Notes under the pieces: generated by a model
What the model was told of the DNA's origin: nothing
Databases searched by the model: none
What the model saw: only the letters and a program-made list of their open reading frames with translations
Part shown: one piece after another, positions 54,267-60,142 of the stretch
How the letters are laid out: every line of letters begins with the position of its first letter
How positions within the stretch are numbered: position 1 is the stretch's first letter
Position numbers and translations under genes: made by a program
Assembly (NCBI GenBank): GCA_030432295.1
Contig: JAUIHI010000015.1
Span: forward strand, 62,001-126,000
Source of the DNA: Anaerolineae bacterium
Lineage (GTDB): Bacteria > Chloroflexota > Anaerolineae > Caldilineales > Caldilineaceae
Length of the DNA stretch: 64,000 nucleotides
Direction: 5' to 3'

Positions 54267-57200
54267 TCAATCCAGCCTGTCCAGGTAGAGCTTTCGCTCT
54301 TCCGCGCTCAGGGATCGGTTAGCAATCTGGCGGGAACGTTCGACCCAAGAGCCGTGGGGCACTTTCCAGCGGTGGGCCTTGCCATCAAACGAAGCCAGAT
54401 AGAGCCATTCCCCGTCCGGGCTGAGCGCCATCGATTCGGTTTCGATGTGGGTGCGCAAGGGGGGAGCCAGAGGCGTCCGACTTTCCAGGTCCCACCAGAT
54501 CACACTGCCGTTTCCCCCCAGCGTGACCAATACCCTTTCTCCCTCCACCGGGCTGAACTCGGCCTGCCAGACCTGCCCTTCGTGGCCCGTTAGCGGCGAG
54601 GCGCTTTCCTCTCCTGTCTGTGGATCCCAGAAACGCACTGTCCCATCGCTGCTGGTCGAAATCAGCGTGCGTCCATCCGCGCTGTAGAGCAGATCGGTCA
54701 CCCAATTGGTGTGGGCTTCGATGGCAGGGGCAACCGGTGCAAAGCCGTCCAACGACCAAAAGCCAATCGAGCGATCTTTGCTGCCGCTCGTCAACACCTG
54801 GCCATCGGGTGAAAAGGTGAGCGTGAGAACCCAGGAGGAGAGTCCTGAGTGCAAGCGTTTGGGAGGGTGAATCAGTTCGCCAGTCGTCGCGTCCCACAGG
54901 CTGACATAGCCGTCCAGATCGCCCTGGGCCAGCAGGCGGCTGTCCGGCGTGAAGGCCAGGGCAATGGACGGCTCGTTGTGGGGGTTGCCTTCCACTGCCC
55001 GACGCTGCCAGGTGGCCGTCTCCCAAAGCAGCAATTCCCCCCGGTTGTCCACCGCGGCAAACATGCGCCCATCTGGGCTGAAGAGTCCCGCCATCACTTG
55101 CCGCCCGGCCACAGTGGCGAGCGTCCCCGTCTGCTCCTGGGTAGCTGTGTCCCATAGCCCGACTGTGCCGTCGAAGGAAGCGGTTGCCAGTATCTTCCCA
55201 TTTGGGCTGACGGCCACCGTCCGCACCCGGTGCGTATGCCCTTCCATGCGCTGAACAATCGTCAAATCCCACAGATAGATTTTGCCGTCGCTGTCCCCAC
55301 TGAACAGCGTTTTGCCATCTGCCGAGAAGACCGCACAGCGCACCCAATTGCTGTGGTGAAATGCGGGAATGGGCAGCCGTTCCCCGCTCTGGATATCCCA
55401 GAGCAGAAGCAGATTGTCGGTGCCGCCGGTAGCCAGCCAGCGCCCGTCCGGGCTGAAGGTGGCGAAGAGTGCCCGGCCCGTGTGCGCGGTCAAGACGGGG
55501 ACAATCTCTTCGCCCGTGGCTGTCTCCCACACCCGCACGCTTCCGTCGAAACTGGCCGTAGCCAGCATAGAACCGTCACGGCTGAGGGCCAGCCCGTGTA
55601 TCTGCTCCCGATGGCCCAGCAGGGGGGGCGCAAGCAGTGCGCCGGTCTCCCGCTGGATCAGACGCACGCCAGGCAATTTCCCTTCTCCCTGGGCCACGGC
55701 CAGCAGGTCCGCATTGGGGCCAACCTGCAAACTGGTCTGGCTGGGGACAGGCGGTGCTGGCAAGCTTTTGCGGCCCGTGCGGGCTTCCCACAGGCAGAGT
55801 CCGCCCTCTGTGTCAATGGCGAGCAGATAGCGGCCATCCACAGAAAAGCGGAGCCGGAAAATATCCACGTTCTGGCCTGAATCGAAAAGCCTGGCGCGAA
55901 GCGAAGCAGTCTCCCACAGCGCAATCTGTCTGTTATGTACAGTGGCAATCCACGCGCCGGTCGGGTCCAAGGCCACATCGTCCACATAGTCCACACCGTC
56001 GCTCTCTGGCGGCAGCAGGCGTTTGTGTGTAAATGAGTCCAACTGCCAGATCAGAATATTGTTGCGTTCATCGGAGGAGATGAGGGATTTCCCGTCCTGT
56101 CCCAGGCTCAGGTAGAAGACGGATGAGATGTGGCCGTGCAGAATTTTCTGCAAAAAGGGGTTGATCTCCAGAGAAGTCAACAGGTCGGTGCGGTCCTGTG
56201 CACGCTCGCTGCGTGCCAGGGCTTCGATTCCCAGAAGCAGGCCCAGCTCATAGCTGCGTTTCATCTGCTGGTCCGCCTGGGCACCCAACTGGCGGGCCAG
56301 AGCGCGTTGCTCCATACGGCGGGACTCGGCCAGGGCCGCTTCCAGTTGCTGGCGGCGCTGGCGCTCTTGGGACTCCTGGGCTTCCCGTGCCTGAATGCTG
56401 GTGCGGATAAAGTCGAGGAGTGCGCTTTCCAGATCGTCTCCCCGCTCCCAAAACCAGCGCTCTGCCTCGGCCAGCACCGGCCCGCGCAAAAGCAAATCCC
56501 CGTCCCTTGCGCCCCGCAGCCAGGTTTCCAGCCCTGTGCGTGTCCTGTTTTGCCACAGGTGAAAGATGCGGTCCTCGTCCAGCCACGTGCGCAACTGGCT
56601 CCATTCCTGGATCAGCGCTTCGTGGATCACTTCCACAGTCTCTTGTCCACCCGCGTCCTGGTTTGTGACGACCAGCCGGGCATCGGCCAGGTGGTGGACA
56701 AGCGGCCATTGCTCCTCGCCGATTTCTGATCGGGAGGCCAGCCGCCGGGTATCCTCTATATTTTCGCCTGGGTGGACCAGTTGCAGGAAGATGCGGCGTA
56801 CCCGCAGTTGATCTGCCGGTTCCAGCCGGGCATAGATGCTGTCGGCATAGTGGGTGATCGCGCCGCGCACCTGCTCAATTTCGTTGTAGGCGGCATTGGT
56901 AATCCACTGTTCCCTGCGCGTCTCCCAGAGCAGGGCCAGGGCAAATTGGAGCAGGGGCAACTGGCCGGGTGAATCGTCCAGGTCGGCCAGAATGCGCTCG
57001 ATCAAGCCCGGTTCATAGACAATGCCGTGTTGGCGGGCTGGTTCTTCGATGGCCCGTTGCAGTTGGGCGTCGTTCATCCGGCCCAGAAAATGTACGTTCG
57101 GCGGGGGAAGGGTAGAGAACGAATGGTAGGTCAGGACCTGTCCCATGAAATCGGCGCGCAGAACGAGCAACACAGAAATATCTCCCGCCGCTTCTGCCAG

Positions 57201-58490
57201 GGTATCGAAGAAGCCTGTGAGAAAAAAGCGGCGCACGCGCTCGTCGGTGCAGAGGGTGAAAATTTCTTCAAACTGATCCACCACCAGCAATATGCGCGCT
57301 TGGCCCGCTTTTGGCTCATCGCTCTCTGCTGTCAGTACGTCCGCAACAATGCGGCCCAGAGAACTCTCCCCCAGGGCAAGCGCTCTGTTCAGCTTCTCTG
57401 CCACTGCTTCGGCATCGCTTCCCGTGCAGATCGCCTGGGCCAGATTTTGCAGCGGGTCTCGCCTTGGCCGAAAGGTGAGAAACGACCAGTGGATGACTGG
57501 CTCGATTGGCTGCTGGTGCAGGCTCGGCAGCAGCCCAGCGTAGACCAGCGAAGACTTGCCACTCCCCGACGGCCCCGTGAGCAGGACCAGCGGTTGGTGG
57601 GAGACGGCTTCTGTCAACTGGCGGATTGTGGACTCGTGTCCATAAAAATAGCGGGCATTGGCCGGGCCAAACGCGGCCAGGCCGGGATAGGGGGAGGTGA
57701 GGGGCGGGGTTGTGCCGGCCTCCATCTGATGGCTGCGAATCTGCTCGTACAGTTGGGCAAGTCCCGGAGATGGATTTTGGCCTAGCTCCTGAACCAGGTA
57801 GTAGCGTAGCCCTTCGTAGGCGGTAAGCGCGGCCTGTCGCTTGCCGGAAAGTGTGTAGGCTACCATCAATTGACGGGTAGGGAATTCCAGCCCAGGGCGC
57901 AACACCAACTGGCGTCGGGCATAGCGAATCACCTGGGCGTGTCTGCCCAACTGGGAGAGGTAAGTCTGTAGTGTTTCGAGGGCTGCCCAAATCCGGTTTT
58001 CATAGGTGTTCTGCCAGATTTGCAGATCGTGCGCCAACTCCTCTGAATCGGGTAGGAGCATATCTTGCAGCAGGCCAGCCCGATAGAGATCGACGGCCTG
58101 GGCCAGCTTTTCAGCACAGAGATCGCACCCAACCGTGGCCGGATGGCGATGGGCCGCGCATTGGGCCAATAGCTGGTCGATCTGACAAATATCGATATCC
58201 GCCTGGGCTGGATCCAGGATAATGCTCTGGCGTGCGATATCCAGGAGAGGCTCTTCCCGATCCATATCTCCAATCCCGCGGCGCAGGCGCACCAGTTCGG
58301 CGCGCAGATTGCCCAGCGCGTTTTCGCTCTCTGGCCAAAGATAGGCAGCCAAGCGCTCCCGGGCAACGGGTTTGGCTGCATGCAGCGCCAGATAGGCCAG
58401 GATCAGTTCTCCTTTGCGGGTGGGCAATGCAACTTCCTGTCCATCGAGTGTGACAGTGATAGGGCCAAGCAGGCGGATGGAGAGCGTCAT
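54267..58490 (-). CDS. BTAD - STAND ATPase - WD40 giant regulator
   Basis: 1407 residues. Residues 1-95 are a winged helix of SARP type (LLGPITVTLDGQEVALPTRKGELILAYLALH). Residues about 100-255 are the bacterial transcriptional activator domain (QAVDLYRAGLLQDM...YRYYLVQELGQNPSPGLAQLY-like). From about 267 follows a STAND ATPase (PYPGLAAFGPANARYFYGHE, Walker A TGPSGSGKSS at 306-313, Walker B ILLVVDQFEEIF). A coiled-coil stretch near 725-770 leads to about a dozen WD40 repeats (LATASFDGSVRVWETATGEE, LAQGDLDGYVSLWDATTGE). It is probably a ligand-gated transcription factor. The divergent DJ-1-like/SpoVS gene is a likely target. Confidence 0.93.
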   Translation of the reverse strand: MTLSIRLLGPITVTLDGQEVALPTRKGELILAYLALHAAKPVARERLAAYLWPESENALGNLRAELVRLRRGIGDMDREEPLLDIARQSIILDPAQADIDICQIDQLLAQCAAHRHPATVGCDLCAEKLAQAVDLYRAGLLQDMLLPDSEELAHDLQIWQNTYENRIWAALETLQTYLSQLGRHAQVIRYARRQLVLRPGLEFPTRQLMVAYTLSGKRQAALTAYEGLRYYLVQELGQNPSPGLAQLYEQIRSHQMEAGTTPPLTSPYPGLAAFGPANARYFYGHESTIRQLTEAVSHQPLVLLTGPSGSGKSSLVYAGLLPSLHQQPIEPVIHWSFLTFRPRRDPLQNLAQAICTGSDAEAVAEKLNRALALGESSLGRIVADVLTAESDEPKAGQARILLVVDQFEEIFTLCTDERVRRFFLTGFFDTLAEAAGDISVLLVLRADFMGQVLTYHSFSTLPPPNVHFLGRMNDAQLQRAIEEPARQHGIVYEPGLIERILADLDDSPGQLPLLQFALALLWETRREQWITNAAYNEIEQVRGAITHYADSIYARLEPADQLRVRRIFLQLVHPGENIEDTRRLASRSEIGEEQWPLVHHLADARLVVTNQDAGGQETVEVIHEALIQEWSQLRTWLDEDRIFHLWQNRTRTGLETWLRGARDGDLLLRGPVLAEAERWFWERGDDLESALLDFIRTSIQAREAQESQERQRRQQLEAALAESRRMEQRALARQLGAQADQQMKRSYELGLLLGIEALARSERAQDRTDLLTSLEINPFLQKILHGHISSVFYLSLGQDGKSLISSDERNNILIWQLDSFTHKRLLPPESDGVDYVDDVALDPTGAWIATVHNRQIALWETASLRARLFDSGQNVDIFRLRFSVDGRYLLAIDTEGGLCLWEARTGRKSLPAPPVPSQTSLQVGPNADLLAVAQGEGKLPGVRLIQRETGALLAPPLLGHREQIHGLALSRDGSMLATASFDGSVRVWETATGEEIVPVLTAHTGRALFATFSPDGRWLATGGTDNLLLLWDIQSGERLPIPAFHHSNWVRCAVFSADGKTLFSGDSDGKIYLWDLTIVQRMEGHTHRVRTVAVSPNGKILATASFDGTVGLWDTATQEQTGTLATVAGRQVMAGLFSPDGRMFAAVDNRGELLLWETATWQRRAVEGNPHNEPSIALAFTPDSRLLAQGDLDGYVSLWDATTGELIHPPKRLHSGLSSWVLTLTFSPDGQVLTSGSKDRSIGFWSLDGFAPVAPAIEAHTNWVTDLLYSADGRTLISTSSDGTVRFWDPQTGEESASPLTGHEGQVWQAEFSPVEGERVLVTLGGNGSVIWWDLESRTPLAPPLRTHIETESMALSPDGEWLYLASFDGKAHRWKVPHGSWVERSRQIANRSLSAEERKLYLDRLD

Positions 58491-58547
58491 GGATGGTCGA
58501 TTCGCGTGGATGAAAGAGGAATAGTTCGACTGTTTGAGATGGCTTGC

Positions 58548-58577
58548 AGCGTTTGTGCAACGCTCGTTGCATATAAT
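58548..58577 (+). promoter_or_regulatory. Operator-like repeats and TATAAT in the divergent gap
   Basis: AGCGTT-N5-AACGCT (58548-58564), flanked by TTGCA words on both sides, then TATAAT (58572-58577), 51 bases before the fusion gene. The inverted repeat is placed where a regulator encoded across the gap could act. No good -35 is seen, as expected for an activated promoter. Confidence 0.5.
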
Positions 58578-58628
58578 AGCGGGAACGGTAGGAACTGTCC
58601 AGAAAATCTAAGACATCGGGAAAAAACA

Positions 58629-59441
58629 ATGCAAACATCAACCAACGAAGTGATCATTTTATGGGCCAGCTATTTTGATGAATTGGCCGCCGTCACTTTT
58701 GCCTATGAGTTTCGCCAAATGGGAATGCCCGCGACACTGGTAGCGATTCATAACAGCGAGGAACAGCGGTGCAGCGATATTCTCACCCATTCCAAGCAGG
58801 GGCTACACCAGACGCTGGCTGCCGCGGAGCGGATCACTTGCCTTGTGATCCCTACTTCTTCCACGGCTTTGGCCCAGTTTGAGCAGGACCCCCAACTCTG
58901 GCAGCTCATCCAGATGGTGCACGAGAACGGCGGGCGTATTGTCATGGCTCGACCGAACGGGGCGACTGATCCGGAGATTGCCCGCAAACTGCCCCCATCC
59001 CGGGAGATAATGCGCTATCCGACGGTCGAAAAGCTGCTGCTCTTTGCCCGCTGGCTGGCACACTCGCTGGTTGTGGGCGACGGATTGAATGCTGACCGGC
59101 CCACAGGCGTCGTGCCGCCACTGGTGCGGGTGGCGGCCCATTCCGACCCAACCGGCGTGGCTGGGGCCATCGCTGGTATTGTCCGTGACTATGGCTTTGC
59201 CGAAGCGCAGGCTGTGGGACCCTCTGCCATGGGCCAGATGATGAAAGCGGCTGCCATTGCCAAGAGCTATCTGGCGGCAGACAAACTCTCGCTCTTTGCC
59301 AAGCCCGATTTTGTCAATGTGCGGATCGGTGGTCAGCCCCGCTCGGCCATCCGCCTTTTTATCAGCGCCTGGCCTGTGGGGATGGACAATTGGATCGATT
59401 GGGAGCAGGCCAAAACGTTTGTGGATGCCGACGAGGATTGA
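58629..59441 (+). CDS. DJ-1/PfpI-like domain fused to SpoVS domain
   Basis: 270 residues. Residues about 6-150 follow the DJ-1/PfpI layout (EVIILWASYFDELAAVTFAYEFRQMGMPATLVAI, CLVIPTSSTALAQFEQDPQLWQLIQMVHENGGRIVMARPNG), but the nucleophile Cys of the AICHG-type elbow is replaced (MARPNG). Residues about 164-245 are a SpoVS domain (RVAAHSDPTGVAGAIAGIVRDYGFAEAQAVGPSAMGQMMKAAAIAKSYL). SpoVS is a small Alba-like sporulation regulator in Bacillus but also occurs in non-sporeformers. Divergent from the BTAD-STAND-WD40 gene. Weak ribosome-binding site (CGGGA). Confidence 0.75.
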   Translation: MQTSTNEVIILWASYFDELAAVTFAYEFRQMGMPATLVAIHNSEEQRCSDILTHSKQGLHQTLAAAERITCLVIPTSSTALAQFEQDPQLWQLIQMVHENGGRIVMARPNGATDPEIARKLPPSREIMRYPTVEKLLLFARWLAHSLVVGDGLNADRPTGVVPPLVRVAAHSDPTGVAGAIAGIVRDYGFAEAQAVGPSAMGQMMKAAAIAKSYLAADKLSLFAKPDFVNVRIGGQPRSAIRLFISAWPVGMDNWIDWEQAKTFVDADED

Positions 59442-59674: not shown

Positions 59675-60142
59675 GTGGGCCGTTTTCTTCCTTTTTCCCT
59701 AATAGCCCTCGTACTCATTGCTCTTTTTTCGCTATTTGCGTCCGGGCCGACTTTGGTTCAGGCCGCCCCGGACCTGCCGCCGCGCCCTACGCTCACACCC
59801 ACTCCCATACCCACCCCTACCGCCACTGCCACCCCAATGCCAGAGAGTCTGGCCCGTGTTTTGCTCGTGGCCGGGTCGGCCTACGAAGGCGCGTGGACGG
59901 TTGTCCAATGGCAGGACAAGTCGGGAATGTGGCACGATGTGGAAGGCTGGCAGGGCCACGTGCGCAACGGCTGGATCCGCTGGCGGGTGGCACAGAAGGA
60001 CTGGGGAACCGGTCCCTTCCGCTGGCTGGTCTATGACAAACCAGGCGGAACCCTTCTGGCAAGCACGGCCAATTTTACTCTGCCTACCGGCCTCTACGGT
60101 ATTGTCTGGGTTGCGCCCACTGCCGTTGCCCCGGAACAGTAA
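59675..60142 (+). CDS. Hypothetical secreted protein with Pro/Thr linker
   Basis: About 155 residues. Signal peptide ending VQA-AP, low-complexity linker (PRPTLTPTPIPTPTATATPMP), then an 85-residue beta domain rich in Trp (TVVQWQDKSGMWHDVEGWQGHVRNGWIRWRVAQKDWG). I recognise no family; the Trp-rich fold could bind carbohydrate. All candidate starts are GTG; I prefer 59675, with AAAGGA nine bases upstream, over 59645. It converges on the ABC-F gene with only two bases between stops. Confidence 0.65.
   Translation: MGRFLPFSLIALVLIALFSLFASGPTLVQAAPDLPPRPTLTPTPIPTPTATATPMPESLARVLLVAGSAYEGAWTVVQWQDKSGMWHDVEGWQGHVRNGWIRWRVAQKDWGTGPFRWLVYDKPGGTLLASTANFTLPTGLYGIVWVAPTAVAPEQ

Follow-up and report, generated by a model that had tools for sequence, protein, structure and literature searches.

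A SARP-type STAND regulator facing a DJ-1-like/SpoVS fusion gene: a candidate AfsR-like signalling pair in a Chloroflexota bacterium

Does a large STAND protein control the gene that stands head to head with its own, and if so, what might the product of that gene do? The question is raised by a stretch of 64,000 nucleotides from an Anaerolineae bacterium of the family Caldilineaceae (assembly GCA_030432295.1, contig JAUIHI010000015.1, positions 62,001 to 126,000; hereafter the window), in which a gene for a 1407-residue SARP/BTAD-STAND-WD40 protein diverges from a gene that fuses a DJ-1/PfpI-like domain to a SpoVS domain. A reading made from the sequence only had proposed a candidate new signalling pair, in which the WD40 protein may control the fusion protein, itself a possible nucleic-acid-binding or dormancy factor, and had pointed to the palindrome AGCGTT-N5-AACGCT between the genes as an operator-like site. 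We have compared this locus with the rest of its genome (6.7 Mb in 61 contigs) and with related genomes (genomes are numbered G, contigs C and loci L; G000 is the own genome). The general picture is that of an AfsR-like arrangement, in which a candidate operator of two 11-bp direct repeats points towards the fusion gene. That the STAND protein acts on the fusion gene through this operator appears highly probable from gene order, domains and promoter layout; the whole explanation, in which the divergent gene is switched on by the STAND protein and encodes a product that acts on nucleic acid, we favour with a little better than even confidence.

The domain composition of the 1407-residue protein was as the sequence-only reading had described it. 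Pfam matches lie above the cut-offs for BTAD (66-71.7 bits), nSTAND1 (368 bits) and WD40 (226 bits), and a Walker A motif GPSGSGKSS as well as VVDQFEE can be read in the nSTAND1 part. In the N-terminal part, Trans_reg_C scores 24.3 bits over residues 18-82, slightly below its cut-off of 26.2, and by sequence match residues 3-254 correspond to EmbR (2fez) and residues 5-251 to AfsR (8hvr). According to Pfam, the TPR sensor of AfsR-type large SARPs is absent and WD40 repeats stand in its place; the NCBIfam AfsR model yields 33.6 bits versus a cut-off of 1430. Because WD40 replaces TPR, the protein is classified from its sequence as a SARP-type regulator that is not an AfsR orthologue.

Which element lies between the two genes? 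Two 8-mers resembling TTGCAACG, spaced at 11 bp and with a TATAAT-like hexamer after them, are common to the intergenic regions of the window, L034, L035 and L036; an inverted third half-site accompanies the direct repeat in this conserved block. The TATAAT of the sequence-only reading is part of this arrangement. Its palindrome does exist, at a single place in the window (58548-58564, with 0 expected) that is also its only copy in the own genome, and it forms part of this different block; but it is absent from G026 and G027 and was rejected as the operator, the conserved block being a direct repeat. The core TGCARCG-N4-TGCAACG has six exact matches in seven genomes of the same genus, one of them in the own genome, while the reversed pattern used as a control has none in all seven. 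Four of the six precede the fusion gene. The other two (G027 C431 and G028 C810) are each flanked by a further BTAD-STAND gene and, divergent from it, a gene for 159 amino acids, and it may be that the window-type and the second BTAD-STAND regulators have target sites in common. At L179 (1760-5774) and L180 (2257-4430), this second gene with its TGCAACG repeats faces a lipoprotein-like gene of 159 amino acids; the L179 version is BTAD-NB-ARC-TPR by Pfam.

At two g15 loci (L133 and L135), where a related STAND gene faces SpoVS, other repeats (TTGTGCCG/TTGTGACG and TTGTGACG/GTGTGACG) occur in the same layout. All six fusion or SpoVS promoters thus combine 8-mer direct repeats of 11-bp period, a distance of 6 nt and a -10 hexamer; among 2000 dinucleotide shuffles per promoter, 0, 1, 0, 0, 7 and 0 matched the observed score. 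The geometry had been set from the window, its sisters and the AfsR paper, and the independent tests are those at L133 and L135. Across 23 BTAD-STAND loci, the 6-nt spacing is found in 12 in the direction away from the STAND gene and in none towards it, neighbouring spacings being fewer (at most one mismatch between the 8-mers; L313 and L320 are near-copies). For AfsR, the repeats are described as 11 bp apart, with a 22-bp afs box from -40 to -19 and the 3' repeat 8 bp from the -10 element (PMC10936776); if that -10 element sits at the usual -12 to -7, the AfsR box would leave an equal 6 nt. Judged by its sequence, the intergenic element of the window therefore has the layout of an AfsR box and is directed at the fusion gene. 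This layout and direction mark the fusion gene as the putative target of a SARP-type activator; the STAND protein, as the only such activator adjoining the gene, is the candidate for that role. The idea that the WD40 protein controls the fusion is supported in its direction, with an 11-bp direct repeat instead of the palindrome as the site.

Table 1. Features of the divergent pair in the window and, in the last row, genes of a small family at other loci
Feature	Position	Strand	Basis
STAND regulator gene of SARP type, 1407 aa (winged helix, BTAD, nSTAND1 NTPase, WD40)	54267..58490	-	open reading frame, Pfam, orthologues facing the same partner
N-terminal winged helix of the SARP domain (DNA-binding), roughly residues 1-100	58191..58490	-	Trans_reg_C and EmbR/AfsR matches
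BTAD domain, residues 125-252	57735..58118	-	PF03704
nSTAND1 NTPase, residues 267-663	56502..57692	-	PF20703
WD40 repeats, about residues 780-1377, presumed sensor	54360..56153	-	PF00400 and propeller models
SARP-type candidate operator, two 11-bp direct repeats TTGCAGCGTTT / GTGCAACGCTC	58544..58565	+	conserved at L034, L035, L036; layout also at L133, L135
TATAAT, -10 hexamer of the fusion promoter, separated from the operator by 6 nt	58572..58577	+	equal spacing in six related promoters
DJ-1-like/SpoVS fusion gene, 270 aa	58629..59441	+	codon-based start, Pfam, structure model
DJ-1/PfpI-like domain, residues 4-150; Arg108 for the nucleophile Cys, Glu18 retained	58638..59078	+	family alignment, profile, structure match
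SpoVS (Alba-like) domain, residues 163-251	59115..59381	+	Pfam and 2eh1 structure match
Small 'YxSYLLRLW' family genes	L187 6953-7156, L188 8529-8729, L315 3734-3994, L316 7641-7919, L323 296-595, L324 4487-4687		

The divergent pair is conserved among close relatives. When 46 genomes of the same family were searched, the fusion was found, apart from the own genome, in G026 (58% identity), G027 (50%), G028 (46%, broken off at a contig end) and, distantly, G043 (30%). Orthologues of the STAND gene (60 and 58% identity) stand head to head with it in G026 and G027, i.e., the exact pair occurs in three species only. G026 also keeps the flanks of the window (91, 69 and 89%). In the 16 kb fetched from G027, nothing but the pair is common to the window; because no flanking gene of the window is present, the pair has moved there or its flanks have been replaced as a whole. 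G030 has kept the flanks at the same place, with a C-terminal fusion remnant of 33 residues and no STAND orthologue, and has lost the STAND gene. Neither gene was found in G025 (74% complete) and G029. The flanks include an apparently secreted protein of 155 amino acids without a Pfam family (window 59675-60142), which is kept with them in G026 and G030 and is not part of the pair because it is conserved in G030, where the pair has been lost. In the nearest clade of five STAND genes (window, L034, L035, L133 and L135), the divergent partner is a fusion or SpoVS gene in every case.

The start of the fusion gene was placed at ATG 58629 on codon-based grounds; the long open reading frame opens at 58380 within the STAND gene. 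PF04232 (SpoVS) matches residues 166-245 with 76.2 bits versus a cut-off of 24. An AlphaFold model built with 23 related sequences (mean pLDDT 83, pTM 0.72) superimposes over residues 163-251 on SpoVS from Thermus thermophilus (2eh1) with a Z score of 17.3 and a root-mean-square deviation of 0.9 for 89 residues at 43% identity. For the N-terminal half of the window protein there is no Pfam match of its own. Stand-alone relatives pass the DJ-1_PfpI cut-off of 26.6 bits (L043 with 27.7, others with 32 to 39 bits), the profile of this DJ-1-like family retrieves human DJ-1 from the PDB at 2.6e-07, and the modelled half matches DJ-1 proteins, human DJ-1 included, with Z scores of about 13 over about 147 residues and deviations of 3.2-4.4, the aligned range extending at times into the second half of the fusion. 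In the model, both halves adopt the folds that had been proposed from the sequence, DJ-1 and SpoVS, and the missing catalytic cysteine was likewise confirmed: in the family alignment, the nucleophile column holds Cys in 1 of 48 members and lacks it in 47, the window protein among them, while the pocket glutamate is retained in 43 of 48. Of the two outcomes that the sequence-only reading had named as refutations, a pair without conserved neighbourhood and a model lacking the DJ-1 or SpoVS fold, neither has thus occurred. A glyoxalase or deglycase activity of the DJ-1 type has been ruled out for the family because of this loss. A first contig scan with the fusion as the sole query gave no relative; SpoVS genes were seen on 22 viral contigs (L256-L277, IMG/VR).

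SpoVS belongs to the Alba superfamily (PMC11621453), and in AdpA a ThiJ/PfpI/DJ-1-like dimerisation domain is joined to a DNA-binding domain, there an AraC-type helix-turn-helix (HTH) instead of the SpoVS domain of the fusion (PMC8994273). Because a domain of the type that dimerises in AdpA is here joined to an Alba-superfamily domain, a dimeric regulator that binds nucleic acid is to be expected by analogy. We know of no STAND partner of AdpA. The events at the locus could then run as follows. The STAND protein would be inactive until its WD40 part encounters a signal; ATP-driven opening and oligomerisation would, on the model of AfsR, free the SARP domain to bind the two 11-bp repeats cooperatively, and the bound domain would recruit RNA polymerase to the divergent fusion promoter, i.e., would activate rather than repress. 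The fusion product would dimerise through its DJ-1-type domain, which is non-catalytic and may contain a ligand pocket, and would offer its Alba-like SpoVS domains to DNA or RNA, with changed expression or a changed nucleoid or RNA state as its presumed physiological role.

The pair is not isolated. A class-wide search with the DJ-1-like domain profile gave 43 places in 28 of 298 genomes, which together with 10 from the 46-genome family search makes 53. A STAND gene is the immediate divergent neighbour in 40 of these (37 NB-ARC, three window-type), compared with 8 of 440 other genes of the same loci. The remaining 13 comprise two at contig ends, one with a STAND gene adjoining on the same strand, and ten others: in six of these, NB-ARC lies one or two genes off (second copy at L153, L155, L170, L124, L126 and L127), L042 has only a TPR gene opposite, and nothing of the kind lies near L036, L130 and L132. 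The NB-ARC genes facing DJ-1-like genes encode a sigma-r4-like N-terminal HTH (above the cut-off at L037, weak in others), and in most cases a TPR gene comes next. In 30 divergent pairs, DJ-1-like and NB-ARC distances are correlated (Mantel r 0.83, 0 of 2000 permutations), a result that shared descent gives as well.

The partners also appear to be exchangeable. SpoVS alone faces NB-ARC + TPR at L147, L148 (own genome) and L150 and window-type STAND genes at L133 and L135, and the fusion faces NB-ARC + TPR at L037 and window-type STAND genes in the window, L034 and L035. In the SpoVS-facing NB-ARC proteins, an XRE-like N-terminus replaces the sigma-r4-like one, as read from the alignment (weak in Pfam); L148 (2668-5722, G000:C14) is such a second STAND-SpoVS pair of the own genome. 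An NB-ARC alignment search of 16 genomes, mostly picked for having hits, gave 46 matches in 14 of them. By hand tally, 20 face a DJ-1-like gene (21 if one with a gene between is counted), three SpoVS, one the fusion, two an MNT-HEPN pair and two a STAS-domain gene (one behind a small HTH gene); one lies at a contig start and 16 face something else. The MNT-HEPN cases are L234 (4805-8519, own genome, G000:C16), where HTH-NB-ARC + TPR faces an MNT nucleotidyltransferase and HEPN (PF01909 and PF05168), and L236 (4874-8141, G030), where the pair was recognised by sequence resemblance. In G306, two NB-ARC + TPR pairs each have a STAS-domain protein encoded on their divergent side (L237 8369-8743 and L238 8220-8600), and the L238 NB-ARC protein has an HTH_31 (XRE-like) N-terminus.

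In approximately unbiased (AU) tests, a single clade was not rejected for the five fusions on the DJ-1 half (p-AU 0.294) or for four of the five on the SpoVS half (p-AU 0.0855). For all nine SpoVS partners a single clade gave p-AU 0.036, and SpoVS has therefore likely, although not firmly, been recruited more than once. The window pair is one combination from a broader group of STAND genes whose divergent partners are exchangeable. We can imagine, with rather less than even confidence, a modular system in Anaerolineae-type Chloroflexota, in which unrelated DNA-binding STAND sensors (winged-helix/BTAD-nSTAND1-WD40, sigma-r4-like HTH-NB-ARC + TPR, or XRE-like HTH-NB-ARC + TPR) would each stand head to head with one exchangeable output, be it a catalytically dead DJ-1-like protein, SpoVS, their fusion or an MNT-HEPN toxin-antitoxin pair. 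On this view, one pathway could recruit either of two effectors, DJ-1-like proteins and SpoVS, and the window protein would be the two in fused form.

Several observations speak against the explanation favoured here. G028 has the fusion and the operator, yet no STAND gene adjoins them and the hits in this genome (86% complete) include no orthologue, and the fusion may therefore not need this STAND protein. At 19 more distantly related nSTAND1 loci taken class-wide, the gene opposite is a different one, SpoVS or DJ-1 in none of them, which would make the partner specific to the nearest clade; a rule that every BTAD-nSTAND1-WD40 gene faces SpoVS or DJ-1 was rejected on this count. None of 19 other BTAD or nSTAND1 genes in near genomes faces either one. 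The box of the window is the weakest of the same-genus set and, with two mismatches between its 8-mers, lies outside the 12 of 23. A quick look at four intergenic regions of the DJ-1/NB-ARC branch revealed no shared operator.

How do other explanations fare? MalT is held by small regulators, and the small divergent protein could in a similar manner be the partner that controls the STAND protein by binding its closed sensor directly, the operator merely providing feedback on its own level. The correlated DJ-1-like and NB-ARC distances would suit interacting proteins, if shared descent is left aside, and the proteins in this slot are small, probably dimeric folds (DJ-1, SpoVS and STAS). However, effector-like MNT-HEPN pairs occupy the same slot, and folds as unrelated as DJ-1 and SpoVS are less likely to share a conserved docking surface. 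We consider this explanation rather unlikely. Less probable still is a defence or abortive-infection module, in which an invader is sensed by the STAND protein and the effector is whichever partner occupies the slot (DJ-1-like, SpoVS or MNT-HEPN). The patchy distribution of the DJ-1-like family, the MNT-HEPN pairs of the own genome and G030, and the loss and movement of the pair inside one genus would fit. On the other hand, the STAND N-termini are DNA-binding domains and not fused effectors, a search of viral contigs for DJ-1-like relatives found none, and among the proteins scanned with PADLOC, two STAND proteins gave weak partial matches (best 1.5e-04) and the fusion and one stand-alone DJ-1-like protein none.

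Plain synteny, i.e., a SARP-type regulator that happens to lie beside an unrelated stress or housekeeping gene, would agree with the occurrence of the exact pair in only three species and with the joint retention of pair and flanks in G026. It is very improbable: the relocated pair of G027, which lacks the flanks, largely refutes it, a related STAND gene faces stand-alone SpoVS in two g15 genomes, and the operator is directed at the partner.

The AfsR-like explanation has known precedents. AfsR of Streptomyces likewise combines SARP, STAND NTPase and a repeat sensor, a 22-bp box of two 11-bp repeats precedes the -10 element, and a single small target gene, afsS, is activated by AfsR (PMC10936776), activation being presumed for the window pair. 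It differs by its TPR and AfsR NOD domains, where WD40 and nSTAND1 are found here, by its target AfsS instead of a DJ-1/SpoVS fusion, and by its host; in the Chloroflexota bacterium, the presumed target is transcribed divergently. Heptamers with 4-bp spacers between regulator and target genes are likewise found in PimR-pimM and other SARP-LAL pairs (PMC5930380), but these belong to Streptomyces antibiotic gene clusters, with a PAS-LuxR regulator as the target. SpoVS proteins of Thermus thermophilus (2eh1/2ek0) and Bacillus share the fold of the fusion's second half but are stand-alone proteins of about 90 residues, with a role in sporulation in Bacillus (PMC8510167).

In a literature search of material other than subscription papers and preprints, no paper naming both SpoVS and DJ-1, none naming DJ-1 with 'STAND NTPase' and, going by search listings, no trace of DJ-1-like proteins paired with NB-ARC/TPR STAND genes was found. 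A term search of the main text of a 2020 survey of NTP-dependent conflict systems gave no DJ-1, SpoVS, BTAD or SARP (PMC7159879). SARP-STAND activators whose target lies nearby have been described before (AfsR-afsS, PimR-pimM); apparently new here are the output of the SARP-type control and its place in a modular group of STAND pairs. The pair is apparently undescribed, and the claim of a new signalling pair is to this extent retained, with the qualification that it belongs to a wider range of STAND/partner combinations. To our knowledge, SpoVS is widespread outside spore formers without a settled molecular function; little is understood about DJ-1-like proteins that lack the catalytic Cys, and dozens of STAND-type proteins in these Chloroflexota have no known output. 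The locus joins all three through one concrete candidate operator, and it suggests that the Streptomyces SARP box rule is usable for reading the targets of BTAD-STAND regulators across Chloroflexota.

Next to or near other BTAD-STAND genes, on the divergent side, small proteins of 66-99 amino acids with the pattern 'YxSYLLRLW...GFxxLxxLFxFL' are encoded (Table 1). The two scanned (L187 and L188) have no Pfam family, and these proteins are possibly another AfsS-like output.

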